Part shown: positions 5,663-37,380 of the stretch, piece after piece | Numbering within the stretch: the stretch's first letter is position 1 | Layout: each line of letters starts with the position of its first letter | Assembly: GCA_913057135.1 (NCBI GenBank) | Contig: CAJXNM010000004.1 | Coordinates: 1-64,000, forward strand | Direction of reading: 5' to 3' | DNA from: an uncultured Halieaceae bacterium | Lineage (GTDB): Bacteria; Pseudomonadota; Gammaproteobacteria; Pseudomonadales; Halieaceae | DNA length: 64,000 nt | Translations under genes and position numbers: made by a program | Notes under the pieces: generated by a model | Database searches by the model: none | Seen by the model: only the letters and a program-made list of their open reading frames with translations | What the model was told of the DNA's origin: nothing

Positions 5663-5806
5663 GTTGCCACCTTGTTGTGTTTTGGCGAAGGCCTGTGAAT
5701 GTTGGGGTGCCATTCTAGGGGATAGCACAGAATTTGGTAGATCTGGATCGGAATTAGCGTGACGATTGCTGTGCATTTGTCGGGCCGTTGCAAGAGGTGT
5801 CACTCT

Positions 5807-6559
5807 GTGAGGAATGTTGTTTTATTTCAATCGGCTGGTCCCGATCGTCCCCCCTGGATCGATGCCTGTATGGCAACCGTGCAGCATTGGGCGTTAACGC
5901 AGGGCTGGCATTATCGTTTCTTGGGTGACGAACTGTTCGATACGCTCCAGGCAGACATCAGGCAGAAACTGGATGGGCGCAACCCTATAAAAGCCGATAT
6001 TGGGCGCCTTGATCTTCTGCAAACATGCCTTAACGGCCCCGATGCACCCGATTCCGTTGTGTGGGTCGACGCGGACACACTGTGTATTGATGCTACTTGG
6101 GCACCCGATTTGTCGGCTAATTCAGCCTTCGGCGAGGAGTGTTGGGTACAACAGCGACAAGACAAGACATGGCGACGGTATCTAAGCCCGCATAACGCGT
6201 ACATGAGCTTCAACAGAGGATCACCGGTTTTACCGTTCTTGCGCTTCGCAGCGCGCTCTATTGTCGGACGTATCGATGAGCATCATGTGGCACCTCAAAT
6301 TGTAGGTCCGAAGCTTCTTAAAGCCTTGCACAATCTGGTGCCGTTTACGTTACAACCACAAGCTGGAGCGCTCAGCCCCGCCTTGCGCGATGAACTACTC
6401 GACGCACCCGGACCGGCTATTAACTGCTATAGGCAGGCACAACGAACACCGCTGGCGCTGGTGAATCTTTGTCAATCTCTAATCGATGACAACAGCACTG
6501 GGGCTGTACTAACGTTAATCGATGAGCCTCATCGTTTTGAGGCGTTAAGCAGGTCCTGA
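5807..6559 (+). CDS. Putative glycosyltransferase-like protein (GT-A type, DxD motif)
   Basis: [26 protein letters not shown].. and [13 protein letters not shown] (DAD) resembling nucleotide-sugar transferases; GTG at 5807 with upstream AGAGG preferred over 5759. Confidence 0.5.
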
Positions 6560-9500
6560 AGCACCACGTACAACGCGGGAATCAGCAGCAAGGTCACACT
6601 GGTGGCAAAAATGACCCCAAATCCCAACGATACTGCTAACGGTACAAAGACCATCGTCTCCTGATCAGCGGTGATCATTAAGGGCGCCAGCCCAATGAAC
6701 GTAGTGACCGATGTCAGAAGAATGGGTCGGAAGCGTGTGACACCTGCGGCCACGACCGCGTCATAGACGGAGACCCCAGCCTGACGCTGGCGGTTGACGT
6801 AATCGACCAATACCAAGCTTGAGTTGATCACCACACCCGATAGGGCCACGATCCCCAATAACGAGAAGAACACCAAGTCGTAGCCCATGACATAGTGACC
6901 CAATATGGCGCCCACCATACCAAAGGGGATACTGGCCATGACCACCAAGGGCTGCAAATAGGAGCGCAAGGGTATCGCGAGCAGGGCAAAGATAATCATC
7001 AGTGCCACCAAACTCGTGCGCATAATGTCAGCAAATGCAGCCGCGCGCTCCTCGGCTTCACCGGCGATAGTAAATGTGATGCCGGGATAGCGATCGGCCA
7101 TGGTGGGTATGTGGGATGCAAACAGTTCAGCGAGCACCGTTTCTGGTGCGACTCGGCTGCGATCGGCGGCGGCAGTGATCGTCACAACCCGCTTCCCATC
7201 AACGCGACGTATCAGAGATTGACCTCGGGTCAATGTGATATCGGCAACACTGAGTAGCGGCACTTCGGTACCATCGGCTAAGCGAATGCGCATCTGCTCC
7301 AAATTGGCCAATGAGCGACGCTGGTTAGCGGGATAGCGGACCATAATGCGCACATCGTCTCGACCCCGTTGGAAACGCTGTACTTCATCGCCATAAAAAG
7401 CCCGTCTTACCTGCTGACCCAGAAGCCGCTGATCAAGTCCCAGCAGGGCACCTTCCGGCTTGAGTTGCAGCACAATCTCTGATTTGCCAGCGCGGTAGGT
7501 ATCGTTGATATCGTACAAACCTGTCCAGCGGGCCAATAGTTCACGGAGCTCCGCAGCGGCTTGCCCAAGCTGCTCGACGTCGTCTCCCCGTATCTGGATA
7601 TCGATATCAGGGCCCAACGACAAGCTGCTTGCGGTGAAACTCATCTCAACCACACCGGGCACTGCCCCGGTGTAGTCCCGCCATAAGTTCACTGCCTGGT
7701 CAGGGGTCAGGCCACCCCGGTCCCGCCAGGGTTTCAGGGATATACCGACCTCGGCCACATGACTCCCTTCACCCTCGCTAATATTGAGTGCGGAGCGTGC
7801 AATAGGCATACCCACCGAGATGAGGCTATGCTGCAAAGCGCTACCTCCCTCCGGGCCTAGGCGATCGAGTTCTTGAACCATGCGTTCGCCAGCGGCTAAT
7901 ACCCTATCGGCGGCAGCTACCGTCGCACTGATGGGCGCGCCCTCTGGCAACACCACCCGCGCATAGAGATCGTCGCCGGGTACCGCGGGGAAGAATTGAA
8001 ACACAATACGGCCGCTTGCGATCAAGCCCACCATCACAATGACTGCCGCTAATGCCAGGGCGGCGGTTGTATAACGTTGCTGAACCGCCCGCCGTAATAA
8101 GCGCTGGTAGGGGCCGGTTGCGAAATCCTCGAGCGCCGCGGATAACCGCTCCTGCCATGCTTCCCAGCGACGACTGAACCCGGTTTTACCCCGGCCCCGT
8201 TTACGATGGGCTAAATGCGACGGCAATATCAATTGGGATTCCAGCAGACTAAAGGCCAAACAGAGGATAACCGTGACGCCAATCGCCTTGAGGAACTCGC
8301 CCATGGAGTCTTCAACGCTAAGAACCGGAATGAACGCCGCCATGGTGGTGAGCACGCCAAAAAACACCGGGACCGCCACTTGGTGAGTACCGTTAATGGC
8401 GGCATCTCGGTCACTCAGGGCGTCACTCTCGTGGGCATAGATACGCTCACCCACGACGATGGCGTCATCCACCAGAATCCCCAGAGACAATAAAAACCCT
8501 ACGAGGGATAACGTACTAATACTCAGCTCGAACGCGGGGAATAAAGCCAGCGCGCCCAAGATAGAAATGGGAATACCCATACTGACCCAAAGGGCTAAAC
8601 GGGTTTTTAAAAAAAGTGCGAGGGTCAGTAACACAAGGGCCATACCGCCCAAGGCGTTGTTGATGAGCACCCGCAAGCGACTGATAAGGTCATTCGATTC
8701 ATCGCGCCAAATCGACAGCTCGATACCCGGTGGTAAGGTGGCCTGCTTCTGTTCAATATAGGCTTTGGCTGCCCGAGCAATCGCTACCGTATCTTCACCG
8801 CCGACTCTGGATAAATGCAGCAACATGGCAGGCTTGCCATCTAGCGTCGCAGAGACGTCGTTATCTTCGAAAATATCCCGAACCTGGGCTACATCGCCCA
8901 CCAATACTTGGGTACCGTCGGTACGATTGATCAGCGGGATCTGACGCAGCGCCTCGGCGCCGTAGCGTTGCCCGTTGCTGCGCAACAGCATTTCCCCTTC
9001 AGCGGCTTTGATCGAGCCGCCGGGAATATCGACGCTAGCGCCATTAATCGCTGCGGTGATGTCACTGAAACGCAATCCATAGGCGCGCAGTGTTTGCTCG
9101 GACACCTCGACACTGATCTCATCTCGACGCCGATACAAAATATCAACATGGCTAATGACACCCAGCTCGAGTAATTCGGTGCGTACCTCTTCCGCCAGCT
9201 GCTTAAGTACCGTCTCGGTAGTGGCGCCCGCGAGGGCTAATTGCATCACCATGGATCGGACGGTGATTTTCGCGACCACCGGGCGTTCCGTGTTCTTGGG
9301 CAAGGTCGAAATAGCGTTGATCTGCGCTTTAATGTCATCAAGAGCCTGATTGGGGTCAGCGGCGTGATCGAGCTCTGCCATCGTGCTACATAAGCCCTGC
9401 TTGGCAGTGGTTCTAATGCGCTTTATGCCGACAATGCCCTGAATGGCCTCCTCGATACGCAGACATACACCTGACTCAACTTCGGCGGGGGCCGCACCCA

Positions 9501-9657
9501 AATAAGGCACCGTGATCGAGATCACCGGCACTTCAATTTCCGGGAACTCCTCTCGATGCACAGCGGACACGCCCAAGAGACCTGCGGCGATGAGAATGAG
9601 CATGAGCAAGTTCGCGGCAACGGGGTTGTCCACAAACCAAGCAATAATCCCTTTCAT
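6529..9657 (-). CDS. RND-family efflux transporter, inner-membrane subunit (AcrB/HAE1-like)
   Basis: 1042 aa; VDNPVAANLLMLILIAAGL, EFPEIEVPVISITVPYLGAAPAEVE, LVDDAIVVGERI, TSVTTFIGLAPLMI. Confidence 0.93.
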   Translation of the reverse strand: MKGIIAWFVDNPVAANLLMLILIAAGLLGVSAVHREEFPEIEVPVISITVPYLGAAPAEVESGVCLRIEEAIQGIVGIKRIRTTAKQGLCSTMAELDHAADPNQALDDIKAQINAISTLPKNTERPVVAKITVRSMVMQLALAGATTETVLKQLAEEVRTELLELGVISHVDILYRRRDEISVEVSEQTLRAYGLRFSDITAAINGASVDIPGGSIKAAEGEMLLRSNGQRYGAEALRQIPLINRTDGTQVLVGDVAQVRDIFEDNDVSATLDGKPAMLLHLSRVGGEDTVAIARAAKAYIEQKQATLPPGIELSIWRDESNDLISRLRVLINNALGGMALVLLTLALFLKTRLALWVSMGIPISILGALALFPAFELSISTLSLVGFLLSLGILVDDAIVVGERIYAHESDALSDRDAAINGTHQVAVPVFFGVLTTMAAFIPVLSVEDSMGEFLKAIGVTVILCLAFSLLESQLILPSHLAHRKRGRGKTGFSRRWEAWQERLSAALEDFATGPYQRLLRRAVQQRYTTAALALAAVIVMVGLIASGRIVFQFFPAVPGDDLYARVVLPEGAPISATVAAADRVLAAGERMVQELDRLGPEGGSALQHSLISVGMPIARSALNISEGEGSHVAEVGISLKPWRDRGGLTPDQAVNLWRDYTGAVPGVVEMSFTASSLSLGPDIDIQIRGDDVEQLGQAAAELRELLARWTGLYDINDTYRAGKSEIVLQLKPEGALLGLDQRLLGQQVRRAFYGDEVQRFQRGRDDVRIMVRYPANQRRSLANLEQMRIRLADGTEVPLLSVADITLTRGQSLIRRVDGKRVVTITAAADRSRVAPETVLAELFASHIPTMADRYPGITFTIAGEAEERAAAFADIMRTSLVALMIIFALLAIPLRSYLQPLVVMASIPFGMVGAILGHYVMGYDLVFFSLLGIVALSGVVINSSLVLVDYVNRQRQAGVSVYDAVVAAGVTRFRPILLTSVTTFIGLAPLMITADQETMVFVPLAVSLGFGVIFATSVTLLLIPALYVVLQDLLNASKR

Positions 9658-9661
9658 CAGA

Positions 9662-10807
9662 TTACTCGGCCCGGGACACCGGCACCACGCTCATGCCGTC
9701 GACCGGTGTCGGTAATGGCGCTAAACAAAGAAGGTCGCCATCACTTAACCCCTTGTGAATAAGCGCAGTATCGCCGCTCATGCGCAGTACCTGTACTTCT
9801 CTGAAACGCAGCCGTTGCTCGCTGTCGACAACAAGGACACGGTTGTTCTGTAACAAGGAAGAGCGGGGAATCGCAGCGACCCCAGCTACCGTAATACCGC
9901 TAATATCCGCGTCCACGAACAGGCCGATAGGCAGGGTATCAACGGTGGGGTCCGTGGCTGTTGTGACCTCCGCCACAATGTGGACCATGCGACTTTGGGG
10001 ATCTATCTCGCCTTCCGTGCGGGCGACGACGCCTTGCCATACCCGCTCGCGCCCGGCGAAATTAGCGCGCAAACGCACCTTGGGTGCGGCCATCTCAGGA
10101 ACAACACCTACCTGACCTAATGCTGGATCGAGAAAGGCTAGCTGGCTATCGGCTAGGGGTAGGCGCACCTCGAGGTGATCGGTTGCATATAGGCTGGCCA
10201 GCGGTGTACCTCGCTGGACAAATTGACCAAGGGCCGCACTGGCTGCCCGCACACGTCCCGAGTAGGGTGCACTGAGTGTGCAGCGCTCTAACTCCAGCGC
10301 TGCCTGGGACAAGGCACTTTGAGCTCGCAACAAAGCCGCCTCGGCAATATCGCGGCTGCGTTGAGCCTGTTGTAGTTGGGTATCGCTGGCCAACTCTCGG
10401 TTGCGCAATGACTCAATGCGACGCAATTCACTATCGGCAAAGGTGAACTCCGCTTGAGACCGCTGCTGCTCCGCTTTGGCTTGTTGGTGCGCTAATTCGT
10501 AGTCGGCACTGTCAATCTTCAGCAGCGTGTCGCCCCGTTGAAAGCGCCCACCCGAACGCAGGGCAGGGGATACCCAGACGATCTCCCCGGCTACCCGGGC
10601 AATCAAGGGCGTCTGTGTTCTGGGTTGCACACTGCCCTGGGACGTTACCTCGAGCTTAATGTCTTCAAGCTCGATACTTTGGGTGGTCACTGCCACAGCA
10701 GGCTTTACCACCGGTTCAGTATTGGGAGCGGGAGCACTGAGTTGCAGCAGGTAAAACAGAAGGCAGGCCGCAGCGACGATAATCAGCGGCAACCGCAAGC
10801 GAGTCAC
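9662..10807 (-). CDS. RND periplasmic adaptor (membrane fusion protein, HlyD/AcrA-like)
   Basis: IELEDIKLEVTSQGSVQPRTQTPLIARVAGEIVWVSPALRSGGRFQRGDTLLKID, LERCTLSAPYSGRVRAAS; GTG at 10807 in a GTGA overlap with the uxuB stop is the likely start. Confidence 0.9.
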   Translation of the reverse strand: MTRLRLPLIIVAAACLLFYLLQLSAPAPNTEPVVKPAVAVTTQSIELEDIKLEVTSQGSVQPRTQTPLIARVAGEIVWVSPALRSGGRFQRGDTLLKIDSADYELAHQQAKAEQQRSQAEFTFADSELRRIESLRNRELASDTQLQQAQRSRDIAEAALLRAQSALSQAALELERCTLSAPYSGRVRAASAALGQFVQRGTPLASLYATDHLEVRLPLADSQLAFLDPALGQVGVVPEMAAPKVRLRANFAGRERVWQGVVARTEGEIDPQSRMVHIVAEVTTATDPTVDTLPIGLFVDADISGITVAGVAAIPRSSLLQNNRVLVVDSEQRLRFREVQVLRMSGDTALIHKGLSDGDLLCLAPLPTPVDGMSVVPVSRAE

Positions 10808-12282
10808 GATGACGAATCTCCAATCGATAAGTCGCTGCGGCTGTGAAGGCTGCGGTAGCAATACTCGAGCTCATTGCGCCACGCCGGGAATCGGGTGACT
10901 AAGCCCTGCAGCGGTGGATACGCCTCAATAATAAGGCTTGCGCGGGCTTGATAACAATGCGGAGCCGCCTCTAATTGCCGTGCAAGTGCAGGTTGCAGTG
11001 GGTCGGTAAACCTGAGCGGCTGATCCGACTGTGAGACACCCCCTTGTATGCACATCCAAGCAGCAACCACATGGGTCAGTGTTGATACCTGTTCACCCCG
11101 CTCGAGTCGCTCCGATAATGGCGCCAGAATCCGCTGGGGAAGCTTTTGGCTAGAGTCGGTGGCGATTTGGAGCAGTGCGTGCTGAAGGTGGGGATTGGCA
11201 AAGCGCTGCTTTAACGCTCGGCAATAGGCTTCAGCATCAAAGTCATTATCGATGGGCAGCGTCGGTAGGATCTCACGCCACAAGGCATCGCAGAGTCCGC
11301 CCAACAGTTCACCAGAAACCGCCTCATGGACGTGCTCAAGTCCGAACCAACTACCTAAACACGCCAGGCCAGAATGGGCAGCGTTCAACAATCGAAGCTT
11401 GCGCTGCTCCCACGGGGCGACATCTGCTACCCACGTAACACCAACCTTTTCGAGGGCAGGTCGCTCTGCGGCAAACGTATCTTCGATGACCCACTGAGAA
11501 AAAGCTTCAGTGACGACAGCGCCATCATCGCGAAAGCCAAGTATCGCTGTCACCTCGTCAAACTTGGCGGAACTCATGGCTGGCGCAATGCGATCCACCA
11601 TAGCGTTAGGGAAAGCCACATGGGTATCAATCCAATGAGCTAACGCCGGGTCGTGATGCTGCGCAAGGGTTAACACCATGCGCTTGGTGATATTGCCGTT
11701 GTGGCTCAAATTATCGCAGGACAGCACGGTGACGCCCTTGTGACCGGCCCTGTAGCGCTGCATCAATCCTGCCAGTAGATGCCCCAATGCTGTGACTGGG
11801 TGCTCAAGACTCGCCAGATCTGCCTGCACCGCGGCATCACTCTTTGCCAGCTCACCTGTGGCTGGGTCATAGCAATAGCCCTTTTCGGTAATGGTCAAGG
11901 TCACCAATTGCGTCGACGGCGCGGCGATTAAATCACGAAGTCGCCGGGGTTCGCTGCGGGCATCGATAACAGAGTGAATAGAACCCACCAACTCATGACT
12001 CACGTCGGTCGCACTCTGTGCGTGATGGCTGTACCAACCCTGCTGGGGGTTGAGTTGATCAGAGGCGGTTGGCGAACGCAGTGATGCGCCAACAATCATC
12101 CAGGGTGCGTCAGCTTGTAACTTGTTTAACTGATGGAAGTACCACGCCTGATGGGCGCGGTGAAACGCACCCACGCCCAAATGCACTATCTTGGGCGCCA
12201 CATCCCTTGGGTAACAACCACGCCCCACGCTATGAGGAACCTGAGATTGGTTATTGTCATTTAATCGTTGCAAGGGATGCAT
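10804..12282 (-). CDS. uxuB: Fructuronate reductase / mannitol dehydrogenase family
   Basis: KIVHLGVGAFHRAHQAWYFHQL, VTLTITEKGYCYDPATG, VLSCDNLSHNG, FPNAMVDRIAPA, KLRLLNAAHSGLACLG; start about 12282 (MHPLQRL); track start 12405 overlaps the TonB receptor gene. Confidence 0.88.
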   Translation of the reverse strand: MHPLQRLNDNNQSQVPHSVGRGCYPRDVAPKIVHLGVGAFHRAHQAWYFHQLNKLQADAPWMIVGASLRSPTASDQLNPQQGWYSHHAQSATDVSHELVGSIHSVIDARSEPRRLRDLIAAPSTQLVTLTITEKGYCYDPATGELAKSDAAVQADLASLEHPVTALGHLLAGLMQRYRAGHKGVTVLSCDNLSHNGNITKRMVLTLAQHHDPALAHWIDTHVAFPNAMVDRIAPAMSSAKFDEVTAILGFRDDGAVVTEAFSQWVIEDTFAAERPALEKVGVTWVADVAPWEQRKLRLLNAAHSGLACLGSWFGLEHVHEAVSGELLGGLCDALWREILPTLPIDNDFDAEAYCRALKQRFANPHLQHALLQIATDSSQKLPQRILAPLSERLERGEQVSTLTHVVAAWMCIQGGVSQSDQPLRFTDPLQPALARQLEAAPHCYQARASLIIEAYPPLQGLVTRFPAWRNELEYCYRSLHSRSDLSIGDSSS

Positions 12283-12301
12283 CCTCCGTCGTGCGCTGGG
12301 C

Positions 12302-12327
12302 AAAAAAAGGGCTGCCAGCGGCAGCCC
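12302..12327 (-). terminator. Rho-independent terminator downstream of TonB receptor gene
   Basis: On minus strand GGGCTGCC-GCT-GGCAGCCC followed by TTTTTTT; 8-bp perfect stem, 3-nt loop. Confidence 0.9.
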
Positions 12328-12361
12328 ATAACAGGGGTGTCGAGCACCCAACGCAAAGTTA

Positions 12362-14632
12362 TTAGAAAGACCAACGTGCCCGCAATCCCGCAAATCGCTG
12401 GGCATTTCGGGGCAAGATGTGCGTCATCACAGGCACGCCGCCATAGAAGCCCGAGTTGTCACCGATAATGCTGGCGTAGCGCTCATCAAAAGCATTGTTC
12501 ACAAACGCAGTGATGCGATAGCGCCCCTCGTTATCCTCAATACCCACGCTGAAATTGGCGATACCGTAACTGGTTTGAACCGTGCGCGGGTTGGCGAACA
12601 AATCAAAATTCACGTCGTCTTGGTAGGTATAGTTACCGTTAGCGAAGAGAGAGAATGGCATGCCACTCAAGTCCGACTCATAGGTCAGACCCAGGTTGTA
12701 TTTGAAGTCGGGGGAGTTAGCCAGCGGCTTACCCGCAAGGTCCTGCAGACCGCCCACACAACCTTCGGCCTCGGTCTGTCCGGGGTAGCAGTTGGCACCA
12801 CGGAAAGACTCGATAGTGGCATCAATAAGCGCGGTACTCGCGTCGAGACGCCATGAGCTGCTCAACTGCATGGCAAACTCGGCCTCGATTCCTTGGGTAC
12901 GCAATTCACCCACGTTATTAAGCGCAACGACAATGCCTTCATCGGCAGTCACCTCGGCGCTTTGTGCTTGAAAGTCGTCATAGTCCGTTAAGAAAGCCAC
13001 CACACTAAACTGGGCTCTACCATCAAAAATGGCGCCCTTTAGGCCCGCTTCATAGGAGACGGAATTCTCCGCACCCACGGGGTTTGCAGCACGATCGGTG
13101 TTGAAACCTGAACTCACGTCGTAGGCTTGACCTTTGTAACCGGTAGAGACGCTGACAAATGTGCTGAGGTCCTCGCGCATGAAGTACTGCAGCGCCACTT
13201 TGCCGACTGTGAAGGTATCGGAGTCATCCCCTTGGAATGTTTCACTGATGGCATCGTCATTGAAAAACACTTCGATTTCTTCGCGACCAACGCGGCCGCC
13301 GACACTTAGATCCAGCGCATCACTCAAGTGGAAATTGACTTGACCAAACAGGGCAAGGTTGGTGTTGGTCGTGCCCGCATCCCAATCCGCAACGAACAAG
13401 GGCAGGCGATCAAAGACGCGGGTCGTCTCGGCGTTGGAGTACCAAAGACCGACGATGTAATCCATGTTGTCGCCCTGGGGCGACTCCAAACGAAGCTCTT
13501 GGGTGATTTGATCGGCTTCAAAGGGGGCTACTTGATAAATACCCCCTGACAGGGCGCCGCCAGTGAAGGCGCCAGCCACATCAAACTCGGTGCCGTCCAC
13601 ATCTTGCTCGAATAGGTAGCTCCAGTCCTGGTAGCTGGTAACACTGACCAGGGTGTAGTCACCCATGGCGTAATTGAATTTCAACGATGTGCTGAACTGC
13701 TCGTTATTCGATACCGGCGCGTAATCGAGACGGGTATTGAAATTATCGTCCCCCGGCGTCAAACCTTCAGTGAACAGTGCCGTGGGGAAGGCCCCAAACA
13801 AAGCCGCGCCCTCTGGAATGTCGCGATAGGTACTTACGCCCCCCTTGATATCACGCTCGCTGTAGTCTGCGATGAATCTCACCGAGAGACTGTCTGATGG
13901 ATCAAATACGAACTTTGCACGCACGCCTAAGCCATCGTCGTCGTTGTAGTCGTCACCGTTGGTCAAATTGGTGATATAGCCGTCACGCTGATGGGTGAAG
14001 GCATTAATCCGATAGCCTGCGTTATTGCCGATCGGACCCGACAATGAAGCATTGATGCGTGTCTCATCGTCATCGGTGACGACCGCTTCGACACTGCCCT
14101 CGAATTCAGTACTGGGCGCCCTGGTCACAAGGTTGATCACACCAGCGGAGGCATTTTTCCCAAATAATGTGCCCTGTGGGCCCCGCAAAACTTCTATTCG
14201 TTCGATATCCGCTAGGCTATTGAAGGCCTGAGCTTGTTGTACAACGGGCACGTCATCGACGATGACCGACACGCTGGGTTCAACGCCGATAGAGAAGGCG
14301 TAGGTACCAATGCCGCGTAAGTTAATACTGGCATTGGTGGCGGGCCCCGCATCGCGAATCGTCAGCGATGGCGATACCGCCGTTAATCCTCGGAAGTCAT
14401 TAATACCGGCATTTTCAAGCATCTCTGCCGATACCGCAGAGACCGCAGCGGGAACCTCAAACACCGTCTCTTCACGTTTCTGAGCGACAACTTTTACTAC
14501 TTCCAGCGCTAAACCGTTGCCGCCACTATTCTGTGCAAACGACAGGGTAGGGACGGTAACGCCAGCCGCTAACACCGCGATGGCTGCCGTTAGGGGACGA
14601 CGGGGACTTGGGGATTTTCGATAGTTGGGCAT
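12362..14632 (-). CDS. TonB-dependent outer-membrane receptor
   Basis: Signal peptide, VVAQKREETVFEVPAAVSAVSAE plug, IERIEVLRGPQGTLFGKNASAGVINLVT, C-terminal LRARWSF; start MPNYRKSP at 14632 with upstream GAGG. Confidence 0.92.
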   Translation of the reverse strand: MPNYRKSPSPRRPLTAAIAVLAAGVTVPTLSFAQNSGGNGLALEVVKVVAQKREETVFEVPAAVSAVSAEMLENAGINDFRGLTAVSPSLTIRDAGPATNASINLRGIGTYAFSIGVEPSVSVIVDDVPVVQQAQAFNSLADIERIEVLRGPQGTLFGKNASAGVINLVTRAPSTEFEGSVEAVVTDDDETRINASLSGPIGNNAGYRINAFTHQRDGYITNLTNGDDYNDDDGLGVRAKFVFDPSDSLSVRFIADYSERDIKGGVSTYRDIPEGAALFGAFPTALFTEGLTPGDDNFNTRLDYAPVSNNEQFSTSLKFNYAMGDYTLVSVTSYQDWSYLFEQDVDGTEFDVAGAFTGGALSGGIYQVAPFEADQITQELRLESPQGDNMDYIVGLWYSNAETTRVFDRLPLFVADWDAGTTNTNLALFGQVNFHLSDALDLSVGGRVGREEIEVFFNDDAISETFQGDDSDTFTVGKVALQYFMREDLSTFVSVSTGYKGQAYDVSSGFNTDRAANPVGAENSVSYEAGLKGAIFDGRAQFSVVAFLTDYDDFQAQSAEVTADEGIVVALNNVGELRTQGIEAEFAMQLSSSWRLDASTALIDATIESFRGANCYPGQTEAEGCVGGLQDLAGKPLANSPDFKYNLGLTYESDLSGMPFSLFANGNYTYQDDVNFDLFANPRTVQTSYGIANFSVGIEDNEGRYRITAFVNNAFDERYASIIGDNSGFYGGVPVMTHILPRNAQRFAGLRARWSF

Positions 14633-14707
14633 GAGCTGGGCCTCTTGCATGTTGTTATTTAGTAACTGCAGTGAAAGGAGCACGGCTATGCCCCTACTGC
14701 CGGTAAG

Positions 14708-14719
14708 GTAACCGGTGTC
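14708..14719. promoter_or_regulatory. Possible second, degenerate LacI-type operator upstream of TonB receptor gene
   Basis: GTAACCGGTGTC shares ACCGGTGTC with the perfect palindrome at 15876-15887; the 9-mer also occurs inside CDSs (9702-9710, 48196-48204). Confidence 0.4.
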
Positions 14720-14772
14720 GTAAAGGGACGCAAGACCCGACGAGTGATTAGTAGTGAAAACGTTTGGATGAG

Positions 14773-15801
14773 TTAGTCAGCGTTAATGGGGTGCGGCACA
14801 GCGGTTGACTCACGGGCCACGACCTCGGCATCGAACTGGGCGATTCGGTCGCTTGGAGGGCGTTTGCTATCACCGGTTAACATTTGAACCGCCAGCGCCA
14901 TCATGGCCTGCACCGGCTGGCGCACCGATGTCAGCGGCGGGTATAGATGTGACGCTACTGGCGAGTCGTCGAAGCCGGTCACTGACAGCTCAGCGGGAAT
15001 GGCCACCCCGCAAACGGCCGCAGCGTGATAGACACCAGCGGCCATTTCATCGTTGGCACAGACAATCGCCGAAGGTCGAGTACTGCCTTGCAACAATGCA
15101 AGACCCTGTTGTTTACCAGACTCAAAGGTGAAATCACCATACACAATGGTGAGGTCATCGGCGGTCAGTCCATGCAGAGTCAAGGCATCTTGAATACCCG
15201 CCAAGCGACGTTTAGTAGGGCCTGCGGCTGCGGGTCCACCGATAAACGCAAGCTCACGATGTCCGTCCTTAAGTAACTGATTTGTGAGCGATAATGCCGC
15301 CGTTCGATCGTTGTAACGGATTTGCGGAACAGCAAAATCCGCATGATCGCCTGCAACGCGAACCATGGGCCAATCCTCGCTCACTAAGTCCGCAAGTAAT
15401 CGTGCGGACTCGGATAGGGGTGGAGTGATGATCAATCCATCACAGCCCGAGCGACGCATGAAACGGATAACATCGTCAGCAGCGGCACCTTCATCGGCAA
15501 TTTGATGCATAACCACCTCATAACCCAGGGCATTCGCCGCCCGCTGTGACCCCGCAAGCAGGTCTAAGATGTAGCTGGGATTGCGGTTATTGTAGGCTAG
15601 GCCCAACAGTAGCGATCGAGAACTCGCGAGTGCCCGCGCCCGCCGGTCGGGTTCATACCCGGCTTCCTGCATGATGTGTTTGATGTGTGCGCGAGTCTTG
15701 TCTGACACCCCCTGTTCGTCGTTGAGTACTCGAGAAACCGATTTTTTAGACACGCCCGCCAGGCGCGCGATTTCGTTGATCGTGATGGTCTTCTTTGACA
15801 T
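14773..15801 (-). CDS. LacI-family transcriptional regulator, probably of the hexuronate locus
   Basis: N-terminal HTH TINEIARLAGVSKKSVSRVLNDEQGVSDKTR; SBP-like effector domain; GFDDSPVASHLYPPLTSVRQP; start MSKKTIT at 15801. Confidence 0.94.
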   Translation of the reverse strand: MSKKTITINEIARLAGVSKKSVSRVLNDEQGVSDKTRAHIKHIMQEAGYEPDRRARALASSRSLLLGLAYNNRNPSYILDLLAGSQRAANALGYEVVMHQIADEGAAADDVIRFMRRSGCDGLIITPPLSESARLLADLVSEDWPMVRVAGDHADFAVPQIRYNDRTAALSLTNQLLKDGHRELAFIGGPAAAGPTKRRLAGIQDALTLHGLTADDLTIVYGDFTFESGKQQGLALLQGSTRPSAIVCANDEMAAGVYHAAAVCGVAIPAELSVTGFDDSPVASHLYPPLTSVRQPVQAMMALAVQMLTGDSKRPPSDRIAQFDAEVVARESTAVPHPINAD

Positions 15802-15873
15802 GCCGCTACCAACCGCAGGAAAACCAACATCCTCTGGCCTGCAGACCATTTTGTCTAGTCATCGCAAAAATAT

Positions 15874-15902
15874 TAGACACCGGTGTCGCAAATGCCTATT
15901 CT
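15874..15902 (+). promoter_or_regulatory. Candidate promoter of glucuronidase operon with embedded palindromic operator
   Basis: TAGACA (-35, 15874-15879), 17-bp spacer, TATTCT (-10, 15897-15902); perfect 12-bp palindrome GACACCGGTGTC at 15876-15887. Confidence 0.6.
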
Positions 15903-15936
15903 ACGGGCAAACCAATAACACTTAACGGAGTGATAC

Positions 15937-18009
15937 ATGCTATCCGCCCTTTACCACCAACTATCCAAAGCAGCTGCGGCGCTGATTGTGCTGTTGGCAG
16001 CGGCAGTATTGCCGACAGCGATCGCTTCGGCCGCCGATGAGGACGAGGAGAGCACACCTTTTGCGGCACCCGAGGTAAAGATTCCTGCGCCTGATCCCAA
16101 CGTGCTTGCCTTTGTTGACGCCCGTGCAACGACAAGTCTGAACGGCACGTGGAACTTCATTGTCGACCCAATGAACATGGGCACGCCTGGTGGATTTTTT
16201 GGCGGCTGGGCAACCACGCGCATTCCTGTCGATGAATGGCAGTTACTGGAATACAACTACCCGAATGCTCGACAAATTCGGGTTCCCGGTGACTTCAATA
16301 CCCAGTTCGATGACTTGTTTTTCTACAGGGACAGTGTCTGGTATCAGCGTGATGTCGACATCACGCCGGCGCCTGGGCAGCGGTATCACCTGTGGTTTGG
16401 TGGCGCCAACTACACGACAAAAGTATTTCTAAATGGCGAACCGGTCGCTGAGCAGAAGGGCGGTTATGTACCATTTTCTGTGGACGTTACCGATGTATTG
16501 GTTGCCGGCCGTAACGATCTGGTGGTTAACGTCAACAATCGACTTGGGGCAGATACGGTACCCACTGGTCGCACCGATTGGTGGCCCTATGGCGGCTTAA
16601 CCCGCGACGTGCTGTTAGTAGAAGTCCCCGCTGCGGGCATTACCAATGCAAAGCTGACACTCGCCAGCGATCGGCGTCATATTGAGGGTGAAGTGACCAC
16701 CCGTAACGTCCCTAAGGGGGGGGGCGTTGCGATTAAGATTCCTGAGCTGAATATTTCCCACAAGGCCAAGGTGGATGCCAATGGCGTGGCCAAATGGCGT
16801 GTCGCAGCAAAACCAGAGCTGTGGCACCCCAATAATCCCAAGCTCTATGACGTAACCATCAGCGCCGGTGATGAGTCGGTTGAAGATCGTATCGGCTTCA
16901 GAACCATTGAAACCCGCGGTCAGACTATCTTGCTCAACGGTGAGCCCATCCGTTTTGCAGGTATTTCGACCCATGAAGAGCCCATCGGTCGAGACGGCGC
17001 TGCCTATTCCCGCGCCGATATGGAAGTGTTGTTCGCCGAAGCGAAGGCGTTAGGTGCTAATTTTGTGCGCGCTGCACATTACCCATACTCGCGTCACGCC
17101 GCCGAAGTGGCCGATGAAATAGGCCTGCTGCTTTGGGAAGAAGTGCCCATTTACTGGAATATTGCGTGGGAAAATCCAGAAACCCTCGCCATCGCCCGTG
17201 ATCAGTTATCGCGTTTAATTCAGCGGGATTGGAACCGTGCCAGCGTCGTTATTTGGTCTGTTGCCAACGAGACGCCGTACTCTAAGCCGCGAATGGCATT
17301 TCTTGAAAATCTTATTGAGGATGCCCGGGCAGCGGATCCGTCACGTTTGGTAAGTGCAGCCCTGCTGGGTGACACCCGTCGCGAACTTAAAGATGTGGCC
17401 TTACATCTTGCCGCTTACGGTGTAGCACAAGATGATGTTCCCGCCGAAGAGCGGGCGATTTTCCAGGCTATTCTCGATCGGGCCGGTAGTGCTGCGCCCG
17501 AGGTCGGCTCTGGCTTCACCCTTGTGATTGATGACCCACTGGGCGAACTGGTCGATATCGTCAGCTACAACGAATACTTCGGCTGGTACTACGCCCGGGG
17601 CATCGCGCCGGCTATTGGAGTGTCGGAGAAAACCGTGCGTCAGCTGATGTTCCAATTTATGCATCACGTTAACCTGAGTGCCGATTTTGACAAGCCCATG
17701 CACATCTCTGAGTTCGGTGCTGGAGCAAAGTCAGGCAAACGGGGCGAAGGGGTCTGGACGGAAGACTATCAAGCCCGAGTATACGAGGCACAGACGGCGA
17801 TGATCGCTAACAGCCCGCAGGTTCAGGGTATGACACCCTGGATTCTCAAGGACTTCCGCGCCATGCTGCGCACGCTGCCCGGGATTCAGGACTATCGCAA
17901 TCGCAAGGGGCTGATTGACGAGAACGGTCGTCGCAAGCAGGCCTTCTACGTCTTGCGTGATTTCTACTCGGGTCCTTGGGTCACCGCCGCTGAGGAGTCT
18001 AGCCGTTGA
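15937..18009 (+). CDS. Exported glycoside hydrolase family 2 protein, probable beta-glucuronidase
   Basis: Signal peptide AAALIVLLAAAVLPTAIASAA; GH2 fold NGTWNFIVDP, YQRDVDI, GGLTRDVLLVEV; acid/base region VIWSVANETPYSKP; nucleophile region MHISEFGAGAKSG; cluster with uronate genes. Confidence 0.85.
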   Translation: MLSALYHQLSKAAAALIVLLAAAVLPTAIASAADEDEESTPFAAPEVKIPAPDPNVLAFVDARATTSLNGTWNFIVDPMNMGTPGGFFGGWATTRIPVDEWQLLEYNYPNARQIRVPGDFNTQFDDLFFYRDSVWYQRDVDITPAPGQRYHLWFGGANYTTKVFLNGEPVAEQKGGYVPFSVDVTDVLVAGRNDLVVNVNNRLGADTVPTGRTDWWPYGGLTRDVLLVEVPAAGITNAKLTLASDRRHIEGEVTTRNVPKGGGVAIKIPELNISHKAKVDANGVAKWRVAAKPELWHPNNPKLYDVTISAGDESVEDRIGFRTIETRGQTILLNGEPIRFAGISTHEEPIGRDGAAYSRADMEVLFAEAKALGANFVRAAHYPYSRHAAEVADEIGLLLWEEVPIYWNIAWENPETLAIARDQLSRLIQRDWNRASVVIWSVANETPYSKPRMAFLENLIEDARAADPSRLVSAALLGDTRRELKDVALHLAAYGVAQDDVPAEERAIFQAILDRAGSAAPEVGSGFTLVIDDPLGELVDIVSYNEYFGWYYARGIAPAIGVSEKTVRQLMFQFMHHVNLSADFDKPMHISEFGAGAKSGKRGEGVWTEDYQARVYEAQTAMIANSPQVQGMTPWILKDFRAMLRTLPGIQDYRNRKGLIDENGRRKQAFYVLRDFYSGPWVTAAEESSR

Positions 18010-18014
18010 CCGCA

Positions 18015-19445
18015 ATGACGCCACTTGCTGTTTCGCGCCAGCGTCTGTTCCCTCTGGATCCGGGCGCCCGCGAGCTGTGTGCCGCGCTTTACGAGCGTGC
18101 GTGTAATCACCCCATTATTTCGCCCCACGGGCACACGGACCCAAGCTGGTTTGCCACCGACGCGTGCTTTGACGATGCACTCTCGTTATTGGTGACACCC
18201 GATCACTATGTGCTGCGGATGCTCTACAGCCAGGGGGTCGCCCTCGAGGATTTGGGGGTGCCCAACCAAGCGGGAGAGGTATTGGTTGAGCCCAGGGAGG
18301 CGTGGCGTTGTTTTGCCAGTCACTACCACCTGTTTGCCGGCACACCTTCGCGCCTGTGGCTCGATGCTACCTTTGAGGAGGTATTCGGTTTAAACGTGGC
18401 ATTAAATGCAGCATCAGCCGATCATTATTTCGACCACATCAATGCCTGTCTCGCCGAAGATGCGTTTCGACCACGGGCGCTGCTCGATCGATTTAATGTG
18501 GCGTTTATCGCAACCACCGAGCACGCTCTCGATGATCTAGAGCATCACCAGATGCTTGCAGCGCAGGGTTTAAGCCATCGTATTACCACCACCTTTCGCC
18601 CTGATGACGTGCTCGACCCAGACTTCCCTGGCTTTAGCAATAACATTGCCACGCTCGGTGAAAAGACAGGCAATGATATTGGGCATTTTCAGGGTTATTT
18701 ACAGGCACTGCGTGATCGACGTTCTTATTTTAGATCGGTAGGGGCAATCGCTACCGATCACGGCCCCATCGATCCAATGACCGCTGACTTAGATCCTGGC
18801 GCGGCTGCCAAATTGTACCAACGCTGCCTGACAGAGCAGGCCAGTGCCCAGGAGCGCTGCCTTTTCAGAGCGCATATGCTCACTGAAATGGCGCGAATGA
18901 GTCTTGAGGACGGTATGACCCTACAGATCCATCCCGGGTCGCACCGTAATCACAATCAGCGCTTACTCCAGCGTTTTGGTCGGGATAAAGGGGCCGATAT
19001 CCCGACCCGTGTCAGTTACACAGATGCCTTGGCCCCGCTGCTAAACGCCGTGGGCAATGAGCCGTCTCTGGAACTCATCGTGTTTACACTGGACGAGTCC
19101 AATTACAGTCGCGAGTTAGCTCCCCTTGCAGGCCATTATCCAGCCCTGCGTCTGGGTCCCCCATGGTGGTTCCACGACAGCCCCGAGGGAATGTTGCGTT
19201 ATCGGCGCGGCGTCACCGAGACCGCGGGTTTTTACAACACGGCCGGCTTTAATGATGACACGCGCGCACTGCTGTCGATCCCCGCTCGCCATGACATGGC
19301 AAGGCGTATAGATGCCAGATTCTTGGCCGAGTGGGTCATGGAAGGGCGTCTCTCGGAGGATGATGCCTTCGAGCTCATCGACGTGCTCACTTCAAAACTG
19401 GTACGGGACGCTTACCACCTCGACCAACGTCCACTGGCCCCGTAA
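18015..19445 (+). CDS. uxaC: Glucuronate isomerase
   Basis: NHPIISPHGHTDPSWFATDACFDDA, VALEDLGVP, MTLQIHPGSHRNHN, GPPWWFHDSPEGM, GFNDDTRALLSIPARHDMARR. Confidence 0.96.
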   Translation: MTPLAVSRQRLFPLDPGARELCAALYERACNHPIISPHGHTDPSWFATDACFDDALSLLVTPDHYVLRMLYSQGVALEDLGVPNQAGEVLVEPREAWRCFASHYHLFAGTPSRLWLDATFEEVFGLNVALNAASADHYFDHINACLAEDAFRPRALLDRFNVAFIATTEHALDDLEHHQMLAAQGLSHRITTTFRPDDVLDPDFPGFSNNIATLGEKTGNDIGHFQGYLQALRDRRSYFRSVGAIATDHGPIDPMTADLDPGAAAKLYQRCLTEQASAQERCLFRAHMLTEMARMSLEDGMTLQIHPGSHRNHNQRLLQRFGRDKGADIPTRVSYTDALAPLLNAVGNEPSLELIVFTLDESNYSRELAPLAGHYPALRLGPPWWFHDSPEGMLRYRRGVTETAGFYNTAGFNDDTRALLSIPARHDMARRIDARFLAEWVMEGRLSEDDAFELIDVLTSKLVRDAYHLDQRPLAP

Positions 19446-19475
19446 TTCAACGACATTCTCCCGGAGACATTGACG

Positions 19476-20657
19476 ATGATAGAAACCTGGCGGTGGTTTG
19501 GTCCTCAGGATCCTATTTCACTCACCCAAGTCCGCCAAGCGGGGGCAGAGGGGATTGTTACCGCGCTCAACCATATCCCCACCGGTGAATTATGGCCGAT
19601 CGAGGATATTCTTGAGCGCAAGCAGCTGATTGAAGCAGCGGGTATGGTCTGGTCCGTGGTTGAGTCTGTGCCCGTGCACAACGCAATTAAAACCCGCAGC
19701 GGGGACTACGCTCGCATGATCGGCAACTACCAACAGACCCTGGAGCATCTTGGGCAGTGTGGTATCGATACCGTGTGCTACAACTTCATGCCCGTCGTCG
19801 ACTGGACGCGCACCAATTTACGCTACTCGCTACCCGACCAGAGCGAGGCACTGCGATTCGATATCACCGATTTCGCCGCCTACGACATTCATGTACTCAA
19901 ACGGCCTGCCGCCGAAGCCGATTACCCCGCTGAGATAGTTGCCAAAGCCGACAGTTATTTCGCCGAGCTAGATGCAGAGGCCATCAACGCGCTCGAGCGG
20001 AATATCATAGCGGGTCTGCCTGGCGGAGAAGGTAGTTACAACCGCGAGTCAATTCGCGCCGCTATTGATGAGTTCAACCAATTTGACAATGATCAGTATC
20101 GCGAGCACCTCATCGCATTTCTCAAAGCGGTTATGCCCGCGGCGGAGAAATCAGGTATCCGCATGGTTATTCATCCGGATGATCCGCCGTTTTCACTCTT
20201 TGGGCTACCCAGGGTTGTCTCGACGGCCGAAGATGTCCGCAAGCTTCAAAGCGCCGTGCCGAGTTCAAGTAACGGCTTAACGCTGTGTGCGGGGTCATTT
20301 GGAGCCCGGGGCGATAATGATCTGGTGGCCATGGCCCGCGAATTTGCCGAGCACATTCATTTCGTTCATCTGCGCAATATCAAACGAGAAGCCGATGGCT
20401 CGTTCTATGAATCAGCCCACCTCGATGGCGACAATGATCTGGTCGGTTTGATCGCCGCGCTGCTCGATGCGGAGCAGATTGATCCCTCTCATTCCCGGCG
20501 TATTGCTATGCGTCCTGATCATGGCCACACCCTGGCGTCCGAGCAAAATGACCCTCGTTTACAACCTGGCTACTCCTATGCGGGCCGAATGAAAGGGTTA
20601 GCGGAATTACGTGGTGTTATTCATGCGCTTCAACGTGTTCGACAAGCTACGGTGTAA
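19476..20657 (+). CDS. uxuA: Mannonate dehydratase
   Basis: TWRWFGPQDPISLTQVRQAGAEGIVTALNHIPTGELW, YNFMPVVDWTRT, IHPDDPPFSLFGLPRVVST, RPDHGH; ATG 19476 after GGAG. Confidence 0.97.
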   Translation: MIETWRWFGPQDPISLTQVRQAGAEGIVTALNHIPTGELWPIEDILERKQLIEAAGMVWSVVESVPVHNAIKTRSGDYARMIGNYQQTLEHLGQCGIDTVCYNFMPVVDWTRTNLRYSLPDQSEALRFDITDFAAYDIHVLKRPAAEADYPAEIVAKADSYFAELDAEAINALERNIIAGLPGGEGSYNRESIRAAIDEFNQFDNDQYREHLIAFLKAVMPAAEKSGIRMVIHPDDPPFSLFGLPRVVSTAEDVRKLQSAVPSSSNGLTLCAGSFGARGDNDLVAMAREFAEHIHFVHLRNIKREADGSFYESAHLDGDNDLVGLIAALLDAEQIDPSHSRRIAMRPDHGHTLASEQNDPRLQPGYSYAGRMKGLAELRGVIHALQRVRQATV

Positions 20658-21639
20658 TCCTTTGCGACCGTTGACAGTCGTTATCGCAACACTCCTTGTC
20701 GCCACCCTTTTAGGGTGCTCCGCTGAGCGGGAGGTTCGAGTTCTGCGCCTGGCTCATTCACTTGATACCGGCCACCCAGTACACAAAGCACTACTGCACA
20801 TGGCGGAGCGATTGCGCAGCATTAGCGACAACGCATTGCAGCTGCGTATTTATCCCAGTGGCCAGTTGGGGAATGAGCGAGAGCTTATTGAGCTGCTTCA
20901 AATTGGCAGCCTCGACATGACCAAGGTATCCGCCAGCCCACTCGAGGGGTTTGTACCGGTCATGAAGGTTTTTAACGTACCTTATATTTTCAGGGATGAG
21001 CGGCACTACTGGCAGGTGTTAGAGGGGCCCATTGGTCAAGACTTACTCAATGCACCTATACCTGCGCGACTTAAGGGTCTGGGCTATTACGATGCGGGGG
21101 CTCGCAGCTTCTACACCGTCGATCATCCGGTCGAGGCGCCCGAGGATCTTTCCGGGTTGAAAATCCGAGTGCAAGAGAGTGCTACCGCCATGGCGATGGT
21201 GCAGGCGATGGGCGGGGCACCTACGCCTATTGCTTGGGGTGAATTGTACACCGCACTCCAACAGGGGGTTGTCGATGGGGCCGAAAATAACCCCCCCAGT
21301 TTTTATCTGTCGGGCCACTATGAGGTCAGTCGTTATTTCATCCTCGATGAGCACACGGCAGTGCCCGACCTTGTTCTCATCGGCACCTTTAGCTGGGAGC
21401 GTCTCACAGTTGTTGAGCGCCAGTGGCTAACAGCAGCTGTACAGGATTCGGTAGCATTTCAACGGCGACTGTGGGCCGAGGAGACGGAGCGGGCGCTGGC
21501 GGCGGTGAAAGCCGCTGGCGTTACAGTGATTGAACCCGAAAAGGCCGCTTTCAAAACCCGAGTTAGCGCCTTGCATAAGCAATATAAGGATACGGTGGTA
21601 GGCCGTTTAATCGAGCAGATACAGAAGGTTAAGCCGTGA
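20611..21639 (+). CDS. TRAP transporter substrate-binding protein (DctP family), predicted lipoprotein
   Basis: LLVATLLGCSAE lipobox; RLAHSLDTGHPVHKALLHMAERL, IYPSGQLGNERELIELLQIGSLDMTKV, GLKIRVQES, GVVDGAENNPPSFY; exact start uncertain, overlaps uxuA end. Confidence 0.92.
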   Translation: MVLFMRFNVFDKLRCNPLRPLTVVIATLLVATLLGCSAEREVRVLRLAHSLDTGHPVHKALLHMAERLRSISDNALQLRIYPSGQLGNERELIELLQIGSLDMTKVSASPLEGFVPVMKVFNVPYIFRDERHYWQVLEGPIGQDLLNAPIPARLKGLGYYDAGARSFYTVDHPVEAPEDLSGLKIRVQESATAMAMVQAMGGAPTPIAWGELYTALQQGVVDGAENNPPSFYLSGHYEVSRYFILDEHTAVPDLVLIGTFSWERLTVVERQWLTAAVQDSVAFQRRLWAEETERALAAVKAAGVTVIEPEKAAFKTRVSALHKQYKDTVVGRLIEQIQKVKP

Positions 21640-22112
21640 AGGGTTTGATGGTCGGTTTAGCGCGGGTCATTGTGTTGCTCATGGCCACATTGGTGGTCGC
21701 CATTTTATGGCAAGTGGTTTCACGCTACGCGCTCGGCTCGCCCAGCGTCTGGACAGAGGAATTAGCCCGTTTCGTCTTGATCTGGGTCGGTATTTTGGGT
21801 GCCGCTTACGCGTTCCACGAGCACTCCCATTTGGCTATCGATTTATGGGGGGAACGCCTCAGCGCCGCACGTCGGCACCGACTTGCCAAAGGCCAATCGA
21901 TTACTGTGATGCTGTTCGCGCTACTTGCCATGGTCATCGGTGGCGGGCGACTGGTACTCATCACCTGGTCACTGCAACAGTATTCGCCCGCGTTAAACAT
22001 TCCGATGGCTCTGGTCTACGCCGTCCTGCCAATTAGCGGCCTACTGATACTACTTATCGGTGCCCATCAGCTCATGCACGCTTTACCAACCGACAAAGAG
22101 CGCCACCCATGA
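21636..22112 (+). CDS. TRAP transporter small permease (DctQ)
   Basis: VSRYALGSPSVWTEELARFVLIWVGILGAAYAFHEHSHLAIDL; 4-nt overlaps with both neighbours. Confidence 0.93.
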   Translation: MKGLMVGLARVIVLLMATLVVAILWQVVSRYALGSPSVWTEELARFVLIWVGILGAAYAFHEHSHLAIDLWGERLSAARRHRLAKGQSITVMLFALLAMVIGGGRLVLITWSLQQYSPALNIPMALVYAVLPISGLLILLIGAHQLMHALPTDKERHP

Positions 22113-23407
22113 TTGAGTGGCTCATGTTGGCGTTGTTTTTCCTGCTGTTAATTGCAGGTGTCCCTATCGCCATCTGCATTGGCTCGGCGGCGATGGTCAC
22201 CATGATGATGGTACTAGAGCCATTGCCGGCGCTCACCACCGTGGCACAGCGAATGGCTGGGGGTATTAACAGCTTTCCGCTGCTGGCCATCCCGCTGTTT
22301 GTCCTCGCCGGTAATATCATGAGCCGCGGTGGTATGGCGGGACGCCTGATAACTTTTGCGCGATGCTTTATGGCGGGGCTGCCCGGAGGCTTGGCCATTG
22401 TGAATGTCGTCGCCTGCACCCTGTTCGGTGCGGTTTCCGGTTCTGCGATTGCAGCCACCACCGCTATTGGCGGCGTCATGGTGCCGGCCATGGAAAAAGA
22501 TCGTTATTCGCCAGCCTTTGGTGCGGCACTCACCGCCACAGCAGCGACCACGGGCCTGCTGATACCACCGAGCAATATCCTCATTATTTATGCGGTAGCC
22601 AGCGGCGGTGTCTCTATTGCTGCGCTTTTTATTGCGGGCTATTTACCGGGCTTGCTATTGGCGCTTTGCCTCATGCTCGTGGCCGTCACCTACGCACACC
22701 GAAGGGGTACAACAGGCGGCGATATCACCGTCGACTTACCCTCTAAGCGACGCGCGCTGGTAGAGGCGGGGCCCAGCCTCTTGCTGATTGTGGTGATTAT
22801 TGGCGGTATCGTCGGCGGCGCATTCACCGCAACAGAAGCTGGCGCCATTGCTGTCTTTTATGCATGGGCGCTGTCGTCTCTGGTGTACCGCGAGTTGCCA
22901 CAGGTAGCACTACCCGAGTTACTGCTTCGTTCTGCAATGACCTCAGCCACGGTGATGATTCTTGTGGGAACCTCTATCGCCATGTCATGGTTTCTCGCTT
23001 TTCAGGACATTCCGGCAACCGTCGCCGACAGTTTATTGTCACTGAGTGACAACCCTCTATTGCTCTTGCTACTGATCAATTTGGTGCTGCTGCTGGTAGG
23101 CTCAGTCATGGATATGACACCGGCGGTCATGATCTTTACGCCTATATTCCTGCCTGTTGCGACACAACTGGGCATGTCACCGCTGCATTTCGGCATCATG
23201 ATGGTGCTGAACTTATCGATTGGCTTGTGCACACCACCGGTGGGCAGCGTGCTTTTTGTGAGCTGTGCCGTGGCCAAAACCAGTGTCCAAAAGATGATTA
23301 AACCCTTGCTACCGCTTTACGTGGCAATGCTCACCGCACTCTTACTGGTCACCTATGTGCCGAGTCTTAGTGAAGCGCTACCAAGGGCATTAGGGTTATT
23401 CGAATGA
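22109..23407 (+). CDS. TRAP transporter large permease (DctM)
   Basis: GVPIAICIGSAAM, GSAIAATTAIGGVMVPAMEKDRYSPAFGAALTATAATTGLLIPPSN, LFIAGYLPGLLLAL. Confidence 0.96.
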   Translation: MIEWLMLALFFLLLIAGVPIAICIGSAAMVTMMMVLEPLPALTTVAQRMAGGINSFPLLAIPLFVLAGNIMSRGGMAGRLITFARCFMAGLPGGLAIVNVVACTLFGAVSGSAIAATTAIGGVMVPAMEKDRYSPAFGAALTATAATTGLLIPPSNILIIYAVASGGVSIAALFIAGYLPGLLLALCLMLVAVTYAHRRGTTGGDITVDLPSKRRALVEAGPSLLLIVVIIGGIVGGAFTATEAGAIAVFYAWALSSLVYRELPQVALPELLLRSAMTSATVMILVGTSIAMSWFLAFQDIPATVADSLLSLSDNPLLLLLLINLVLLLVGSVMDMTPAVMIFTPIFLPVATQLGMSPLHFGIMMVLNLSIGLCTPPVGSVLFVSCAVAKTSVQKMIKPLLPLYVAMLTALLLVTYVPSLSEALPRALGLFE

Positions 23408-24381
23408 GCATCCATTTAAAAAACCCAAGCTTTGCTGCCATAGGCGAATGCATGCTCGAGCTCAGCGAGGCGCCTGACTCGGGGTTGCCGCCCAAGTTAC
23501 AACTGGGCTACGGCGGTGACACACTGAATACAGCCCTGTATTGCGCGCGTCTTGGTGTCGAGGCGCACTACGTCACCGCCCTCGGTGAAGACGCCCGCAG
23601 CGAATGGCTCATCAATGAATGGCGCCAAGAGGGTCTGGGGGTATCGCATGTTGCCCGACTCCCCGATCGAGAGCCCGGCTTGTACTGGATTACCATCGAT
23701 GACAAGGGTGAGCGCTCCTTTAGCTATTGGCGCAGTGAGTCGGCGGCCAGGGAACTGTTGTCAGATGCAGAGCGAGTCAGAGGACTGAGCACCGACTTAA
23801 CCGCGTTCGGCATGGTTTATTTATCAGGCATCACTCTGTCGTTATTCAATGCACAGGGGTTAGAACGACTGTGGGCCCTACTGCGCTCGTTGCGAGACGC
23901 GTCAGTCTGCATCGCATTTGATGGAAATTACCGACCCCGCGCTTGGGCCAGTCGAAAACAGGCTCAGGGTGTATTTGACATGGCATTACGTCACAGTGAT
24001 ATCGCCTTACCCACCTTCGACGATGAGCAGAAACTGTTTGGTGATAAAACCCCTGACCATACGCTGGATCGGATTCACCGGTGCGGTGTCAGCGAGGCGG
24101 TGGTTAAAGTGGGACCAGAGGGCTGCTGGATTTCTGATAACGACACTAGAGCGCACATAAAAACCGCCACCGTTAGTCGACCTGTCGACACCACCGCCGC
24201 AGGTGATTCCTTCAATGCGGGTTATCTGGCCGGCCGTCTACATAAACATACAGCGGCGGAATCGGCACGTCAGGGCAATCGCCTGGCGCAAATCGTCATC
24301 GCTCATCGGGGCGCTATTATTCCTCGATCGCTCATGTCAAACCTCGATACGCTGCCGCGAGCAGCATCAATACAGCGCTGA
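23404..24381 (+). CDS. kdgK: 2-dehydro-3-deoxygluconokinase (PfkB family)
   Basis: AAIGECMLELSE, LGYGGDTLNTALYCARLG, VVKVGPEGCW, DTTAAGDSFNAGYLAGRL; ATGA overlap with dctM. Confidence 0.92.
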   Translation: MSIHLKNPSFAAIGECMLELSEAPDSGLPPKLQLGYGGDTLNTALYCARLGVEAHYVTALGEDARSEWLINEWRQEGLGVSHVARLPDREPGLYWITIDDKGERSFSYWRSESAARELLSDAERVRGLSTDLTAFGMVYLSGITLSLFNAQGLERLWALLRSLRDASVCIAFDGNYRPRAWASRKQAQGVFDMALRHSDIALPTFDDEQKLFGDKTPDHTLDRIHRCGVSEAVVKVGPEGCWISDNDTRAHIKTATVSRPVDTTAAGDSFNAGYLAGRLHKHTAAESARQGNRLAQIVIAHRGAIIPRSLMSNLDTLPRAASIQR

Positions 24382-24440
24382 CGGCGACGCACAGCCACAA
24401 TTTCGGTAGACTCGGGCCCTTTCAAAACGCAGGCCCAAAT

Positions 24441-37320: not shown

Positions 37321-37380
37321 AAATAACCTCGACTCGCAGATATGACGGATGCTGCCCGCAAAAGGCAGCAAAGAAGGGTG

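Follow-up and report, generated by a model that had tools for sequence, protein, structure and literature searches.

The pump genes and uxuB

The window, by which is meant the whole 64,000-nucleotide stretch of DNA from an uncultured Halieaceae bacterium that was analyzed, carries on its minus strand four genes in the order TonB receptor, uxuB, MFP, RND. The last three, with the features of their junction, are as follows:

6529..9657, minus strand: RND permease (ACR_tran, 8.7e-156), 1042 aa
9662..10807, minus strand: MFP / RND periplasmic adaptor (TIGR01730 RND_mfp, above cut-off), 381 aa, GTG start
10804..10807, minus strand: GTGA overlap of the uxuB stop and the MFP start, read from the sequence
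10818..10821, minus strand: GGAG, likely Shine-Dalgarno sequence of the MFP gene, inside a short C-terminal extension of UxuB
10804..12273, minus strand: uxuB-type fructuronate reductase, Mannitol_dh family (family match; TTG start preferred)

Read from ATG 12282, the product of uxuB would have 492 amino acids. However, the gene more likely starts at TTG 12273, because the Shine-Dalgarno sequence GGAGG (12287-12283) directly abuts the ATG (it lies 9 nt from the TTG) and because UxuB homologues align from MxRLN. The protein scores 312 bits with the fructuronate reductase model, below the cut-off of 603 bits, and the solved structures nearest to it are those of YdfI and of mannitol dehydrogenases, so its substrate is assigned by context.

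The MFP and the RND permease are encoded side by side, as in a tripartite RND efflux system, and the MFP, read from GTG 10807, has its N-terminal membrane segment. Of the proton-relay residues of the permease, the Asp-Asp of TM4 is intact, and the TM10 Lys position is occupied by Asn, as it is in all members of the subfamily that were aligned. The closest solved structures by sequence, the multidrug RND permeases MexK and MdtB, score about 238 and 227 bits across some 1030 residues, a distant match, and differ from this permease at the TM10 position. The pump operon contains no gene for an outer-membrane channel; the next ORF past the RND gene (5759-6559) is on the opposite strand. Many RND pairs borrow a TolC encoded elsewhere, so the missing channel gene is compatible with a pump.

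The opposite-strand ORF encodes 266 amino acids with no Pfam match. A DxD-like motif (WVDADTLC) suggests by eye a glycosyltransferase, and in another genome (G516, L250 7426-8166) a 37% homologue has GH2 and TonB receptor genes close by. At 31456-37371 (minus strand), the window has one more RND permease gene (ACR_tran, 755 bits); two ORFs of the same strand directly upstream of it could encode an adaptor and an outer-membrane channel.

The junction of uxuB with the MFP gene

The first-pass annotation described a GTGA overlap between uxuB and the start of a HlyD-like adaptor, with the RND gene beginning within a few nucleotides of the adaptor's end, and both descriptions are accurate. The uxuB stop (TGA 10806-10804) and the MFP start (GTG 10807-10805) overlap by 4 bases, with GTG 10807 opening the full-length MFP, and the ATG of the RND gene (9657) comes 4 nt past the MFP stop (9664-9662). 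The GGAG (10821-10818) stands 10 nt upstream of the MFP GTG. Few junctions in bacterial operons are commoner than a 4-base overlap, so the overlap alone does little more than suggest a single transcript. A single uxuB-MFP-RND transcript is nonetheless likely and so, from the adjacency, is co-translation of the pump with uxuB in the host.

The C terminus of UxuB extends 7-9 residues beyond that of the UxuB of G376, a genome of the same family and another genus, and the extra codons contain the GGAG of the MFP gene. Going by this one comparison, the extended end fits a join that would have placed the leader of the MFP gene onto the 3' end of uxuB.

The genome is in 103 contigs and the adjacency is unique, so one might ask whether the junction at 10.80 kb is an artefact, two contigs wrongly joined during assembly. 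This is highly improbable, as both genes are full length, their overlap is in frame and typical, and G+C is even across the junction. Also, the pump lies inside an insertion (described below) whose two outer edges are conserved flanks.

The glucuronide-use cluster

Beyond uxuB, the locus comprises these genes:

12362..14683, minus strand: TonB-dependent receptor (family match; 79% identity to the G376 copy)
14773..15849, minus strand: LacI-family regulator (family match)
15937..18009, plus strand: exported GH2 with the NxK motif of beta-hexuronidases (family match and motif)
18006..19445, plus strand: uxaC, glucuronate isomerase (family match)
19470..20657, plus strand: uxuA, mannonate dehydratase (family match)
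20611..23407, plus strand: TRAP transporter DctP, DctQ, and DctM (family match; specificity by context)
23404..24381, plus strand: PfkB kinase, presumably KdgK (family match; role by context)

UxaC, UxuB, and UxuA occur together, as in a UxaC-UxuB-UxuA hexuronate locus, and import and the KDG kinase step are covered by DctPQM and PfkB, with specificity by context. If the steps beyond the family matches are taken from established uronate biochemistry, the locus is a complete predicted route from glucuronides to KDPG, TonB receptor included. The reading of the region as a glucuronide-use locus was therefore sound: GH2, TonB receptor, TRAP transporter, UxaC, UxuB, UxuA, and PfkB are all present. 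Glucuronate and glucuronide loci with a TRAP transporter and a LacI-family regulator (e.g., UxuPQM and UxuR2) are known (PMC5507952), and they have in common with this one the isomerase-reductase-dehydratase route, the TRAP importer, and a LacI-type regulator encoded with the genes. They differ in that here a GH2 and a TonB receptor replace GH109 and an MFP-RND pair is appended. A search of the literature for RND efflux in combination with uronate or glucuronide genes found no paper.

The GH2 has a signal-peptide-like N terminus and, at residues 655-658, the sequence NRKG, an instance of the NxK motif (loop 8) that marks GH2 beta-hexuronidases (PMC12243196). These two features lend some appeal to a role for the pump in aglycone export, in which the GH2 would free toxic aglycones from glucuronides imported through the TonB receptor and a co-expressed RND pump would clear them from the periplasm. 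Release of aglycones in the periplasm would suit an RND pump. We consider this role unlikely in light of the evidence from regulation and from relatives given below.

Two members of the genus (G006, L248 9037-11103; G016, L249 476-2509) retain a GH2 of 66% identity that includes the NxK motif. No uronate catabolic genes lie near it, and both genomes are without uxuB.

Regulation

Three features of the locus bear on its expression:

12309..12327, minus strand: intrinsic terminator separating the TonB receptor gene from uxuB (stem of 8 bp, 7 T)
14707..14720, plus strand: LacI operator candidate upstream of the TonB receptor gene, minus-strand sequence CGACACCGGTTACC (same 14-mer in G376)
15875..15888, plus strand: LacI operator candidate in the lacI-GH2 intergenic region, AGACACCGGTGTCG (same palindrome in G376)

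The candidate before the TonB receptor gene is a partial copy of the palindrome between lacI and the GH2 gene, and both candidates occupy the same places in G376. A whole-genome search for ACCGGTGTCG gave 31 matches, and the reversed control gave 24; by itself, then, the 10-mer says little, and the conserved position in G376 is better evidence than the counts. No shared palindrome or LacI-type operator was found upstream of uxuB, the candidates being confined to the GH2/lacI and TonB receptor genes. The terminator of G376 (L164 15643-15664) has the same position and a different stem, and the terminators of the two genomes are strong (-16.7 and -18.2 kcal/mol). This retention of position but not sequence across two genera may serve to set the ratio of receptor to enzyme. 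In the promoter scan, sigma-70-like sites were rarer than in shuffles, so no promoter can be placed upstream of uxuB or the MFP gene.

With no operator at uxuB and a terminator in front of it, transcription of uxuB and the pump genes would depend on read-through or on an unmapped promoter. These sequence features give no support to direct control of the pump by LacI. The first-pass annotation saw the pump as a likely part of the hexuronate regulon, an assignment that lacks support for the same two reasons, which count also against aglycone export.

An insertion between nhaB and nudC

Both the uronate genes and the pump genes lie in one region bounded by conserved genes:

5746..24440, no strand: entire nhaB-nudC insertion (left boundary no earlier than 5745; right boundary within 24382-24440)

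The neighbors in the genus are dnaQ, nhaB, nudC, and sohB. The adjacency of nhaB and nudC is found in 12 of 14 genus genomes (in the other 2, the genes are on different contigs) and was confirmed in all 8 of the loci read. Here 18.7 kb lies between them, from the end of the pump to pfkB. On the left side, homology to a relative's spacer runs to 5745. No tRNA in the window marks an edge of the insertion. Since the site is empty in relatives and holds 18.7 kb here, pump and cluster share a single insertion, which speaks for aglycone export and makes co-arrival from an unseen donor an alternative to be weighed. In one version of that alternative, the donor would have an island combining glucuronide feeding and aglycone clearing, in which an RND pump dedicated to aglycones is co-translated with uxuB, and the whole would have come as one unit. 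We regard this version as quite unlikely.

The cluster and the pump in relatives

The genome G376 (L164/L165) has genes for PfkB, DctM, DctQ, DctP, UxuA, UxaC, GH2, LacI, TonB receptor, and UxuB in the same order as in the window, their proteins 52-79% identical to those encoded here, with both operator candidates and the terminator before uxuB. It differs in that the GH2-uxaC pair is duplicated in tandem and no MFP or RND gene follows uxuB. Furthermore, no close homologue of the pump was found in the whole genome at the threshold used. The tandem copies (L164 5027-11931) are equally similar to the genes of the window (72% and 71%). Adjacency of uxuB, MFP, and RND genes in relatives had been set beforehand as a test of the link, and it is absent from G376 despite the same cluster. 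As G376 is the only full-cluster relative found, the test has one comparison behind it, in which loss of the pump in G376 is indistinguishable from gain here. Still, the absence of the pump from a genome that has the same cluster, and its GH2 in two copies, argues against aglycone export.

It argues also against a second role, suggested by the overlap of the MFP gene with that of a pathway enzyme, in which the pump would export an overflow of a sugar-acid intermediate (fructuronate, mannonate, or KDG). The substrates of such RND pumps are hydrophobic or amphiphilic, whereas the three intermediates are small, polar, and cytoplasmic. There is very little chance that this is what the pump does.

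Among 57 genus genomes, uxuB is found in this one only, and in the family 31 of 140 genomes, G376 among them, have a homologue. No MFP or RND gene stands beside uxuB at 34 further uxuB-type loci (1.5 kb flanks) or in 8 wider uxuB neighborhoods. Conversely, no uronate genes lie near relatives of the pump at 59 further loci (flanks up to 10 kb). Pump and uxuB both occur in 15 other genomes of the family, on different contigs or at distances of 116 kb and 1.3 Mb. Across the family, their co-occurrence is weak and confounded by kinship (16/31 versus 38/109; Fisher p = 0.10), and its lack of clarity is a further point against aglycone export.

The pump relatives in the genus (RND 55-59%, MFP 41-46% identical) mostly adjoin a gene for a KshA_C Rieske oxygenase. 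These pairs (L047-L059) are of the same subfamily and have the same MFP-RND order as the pump of the window, but their neighbors are different and include no uronate genes. In other genera of the family, many pump relatives sit between ygiQ and hrpB. In a tree of the pumps, the present one is sister (100/100) to the rest of those in the genus; its branch is long and of uncertain placement. The KshA homologue of this genome (74%) is on another contig, without a pump. The company of a ring-oxidizing KshA-type oxygenase hints at hydrophobic substrates, in agreement with aglycone export, and the KshA_C-linked RND subfamily in the genus (L047-L059, L226, L235) may hint more particularly at substrates resembling steroids or terpenoids.

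Discussion

The observations are probably best explained by the joining, specific to this lineage, of an unrelated general RND pump to a glucuronate locus of known kind. A standard glucuronide-utilization locus would have been inserted between nhaB and nudC, and we infer that the MFP-RND pair was joined directly behind uxuB, the last minus-strand gene of the locus. Such a join would bring the ribosome-binding site of the MFP gene into the 3' end of uxuB, which would thereby gain a few codons and come to end in GTGA. The pump would then probably be translated from the uxuB message, which would arise from an unmapped promoter or by read-through past the terminator behind the TonB receptor gene. 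Most likely the pump would serve general efflux, expelling hydrophobic or amphiphilic compounds by way of a shared outer-membrane channel, and no role in glucuronide use need be supposed.

Three points run counter to this explanation. With one full-cluster relative, a loss of the pump there would look the same as a gain here. A shared insertion site, absent from relatives, is as expected from joint arrival, and the tidy junction (both genes intact, with a 4-base overlap) would also result from selection for co-expression. However, the first-pass proposal that the pump forms part of the glucuronide system is not supported, in view of the pump-free cluster of G376 and the linkage of pump relatives to other genes. 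What speaks for a link between pump and uronate genes is a likely shared transcript and a shared insertion site. Adjacency gives little support to a function of the pump in glucuronide use.

If the pump truly served glucuronide use, it would mean that there are bacteria that couple the deconjugation of glucuronides with export of the compound set free. As matters stand, the locus illustrates how a tidy overlap, of the sort seen in operons, can come from local rearrangement and mislead a reading based on gene order only.
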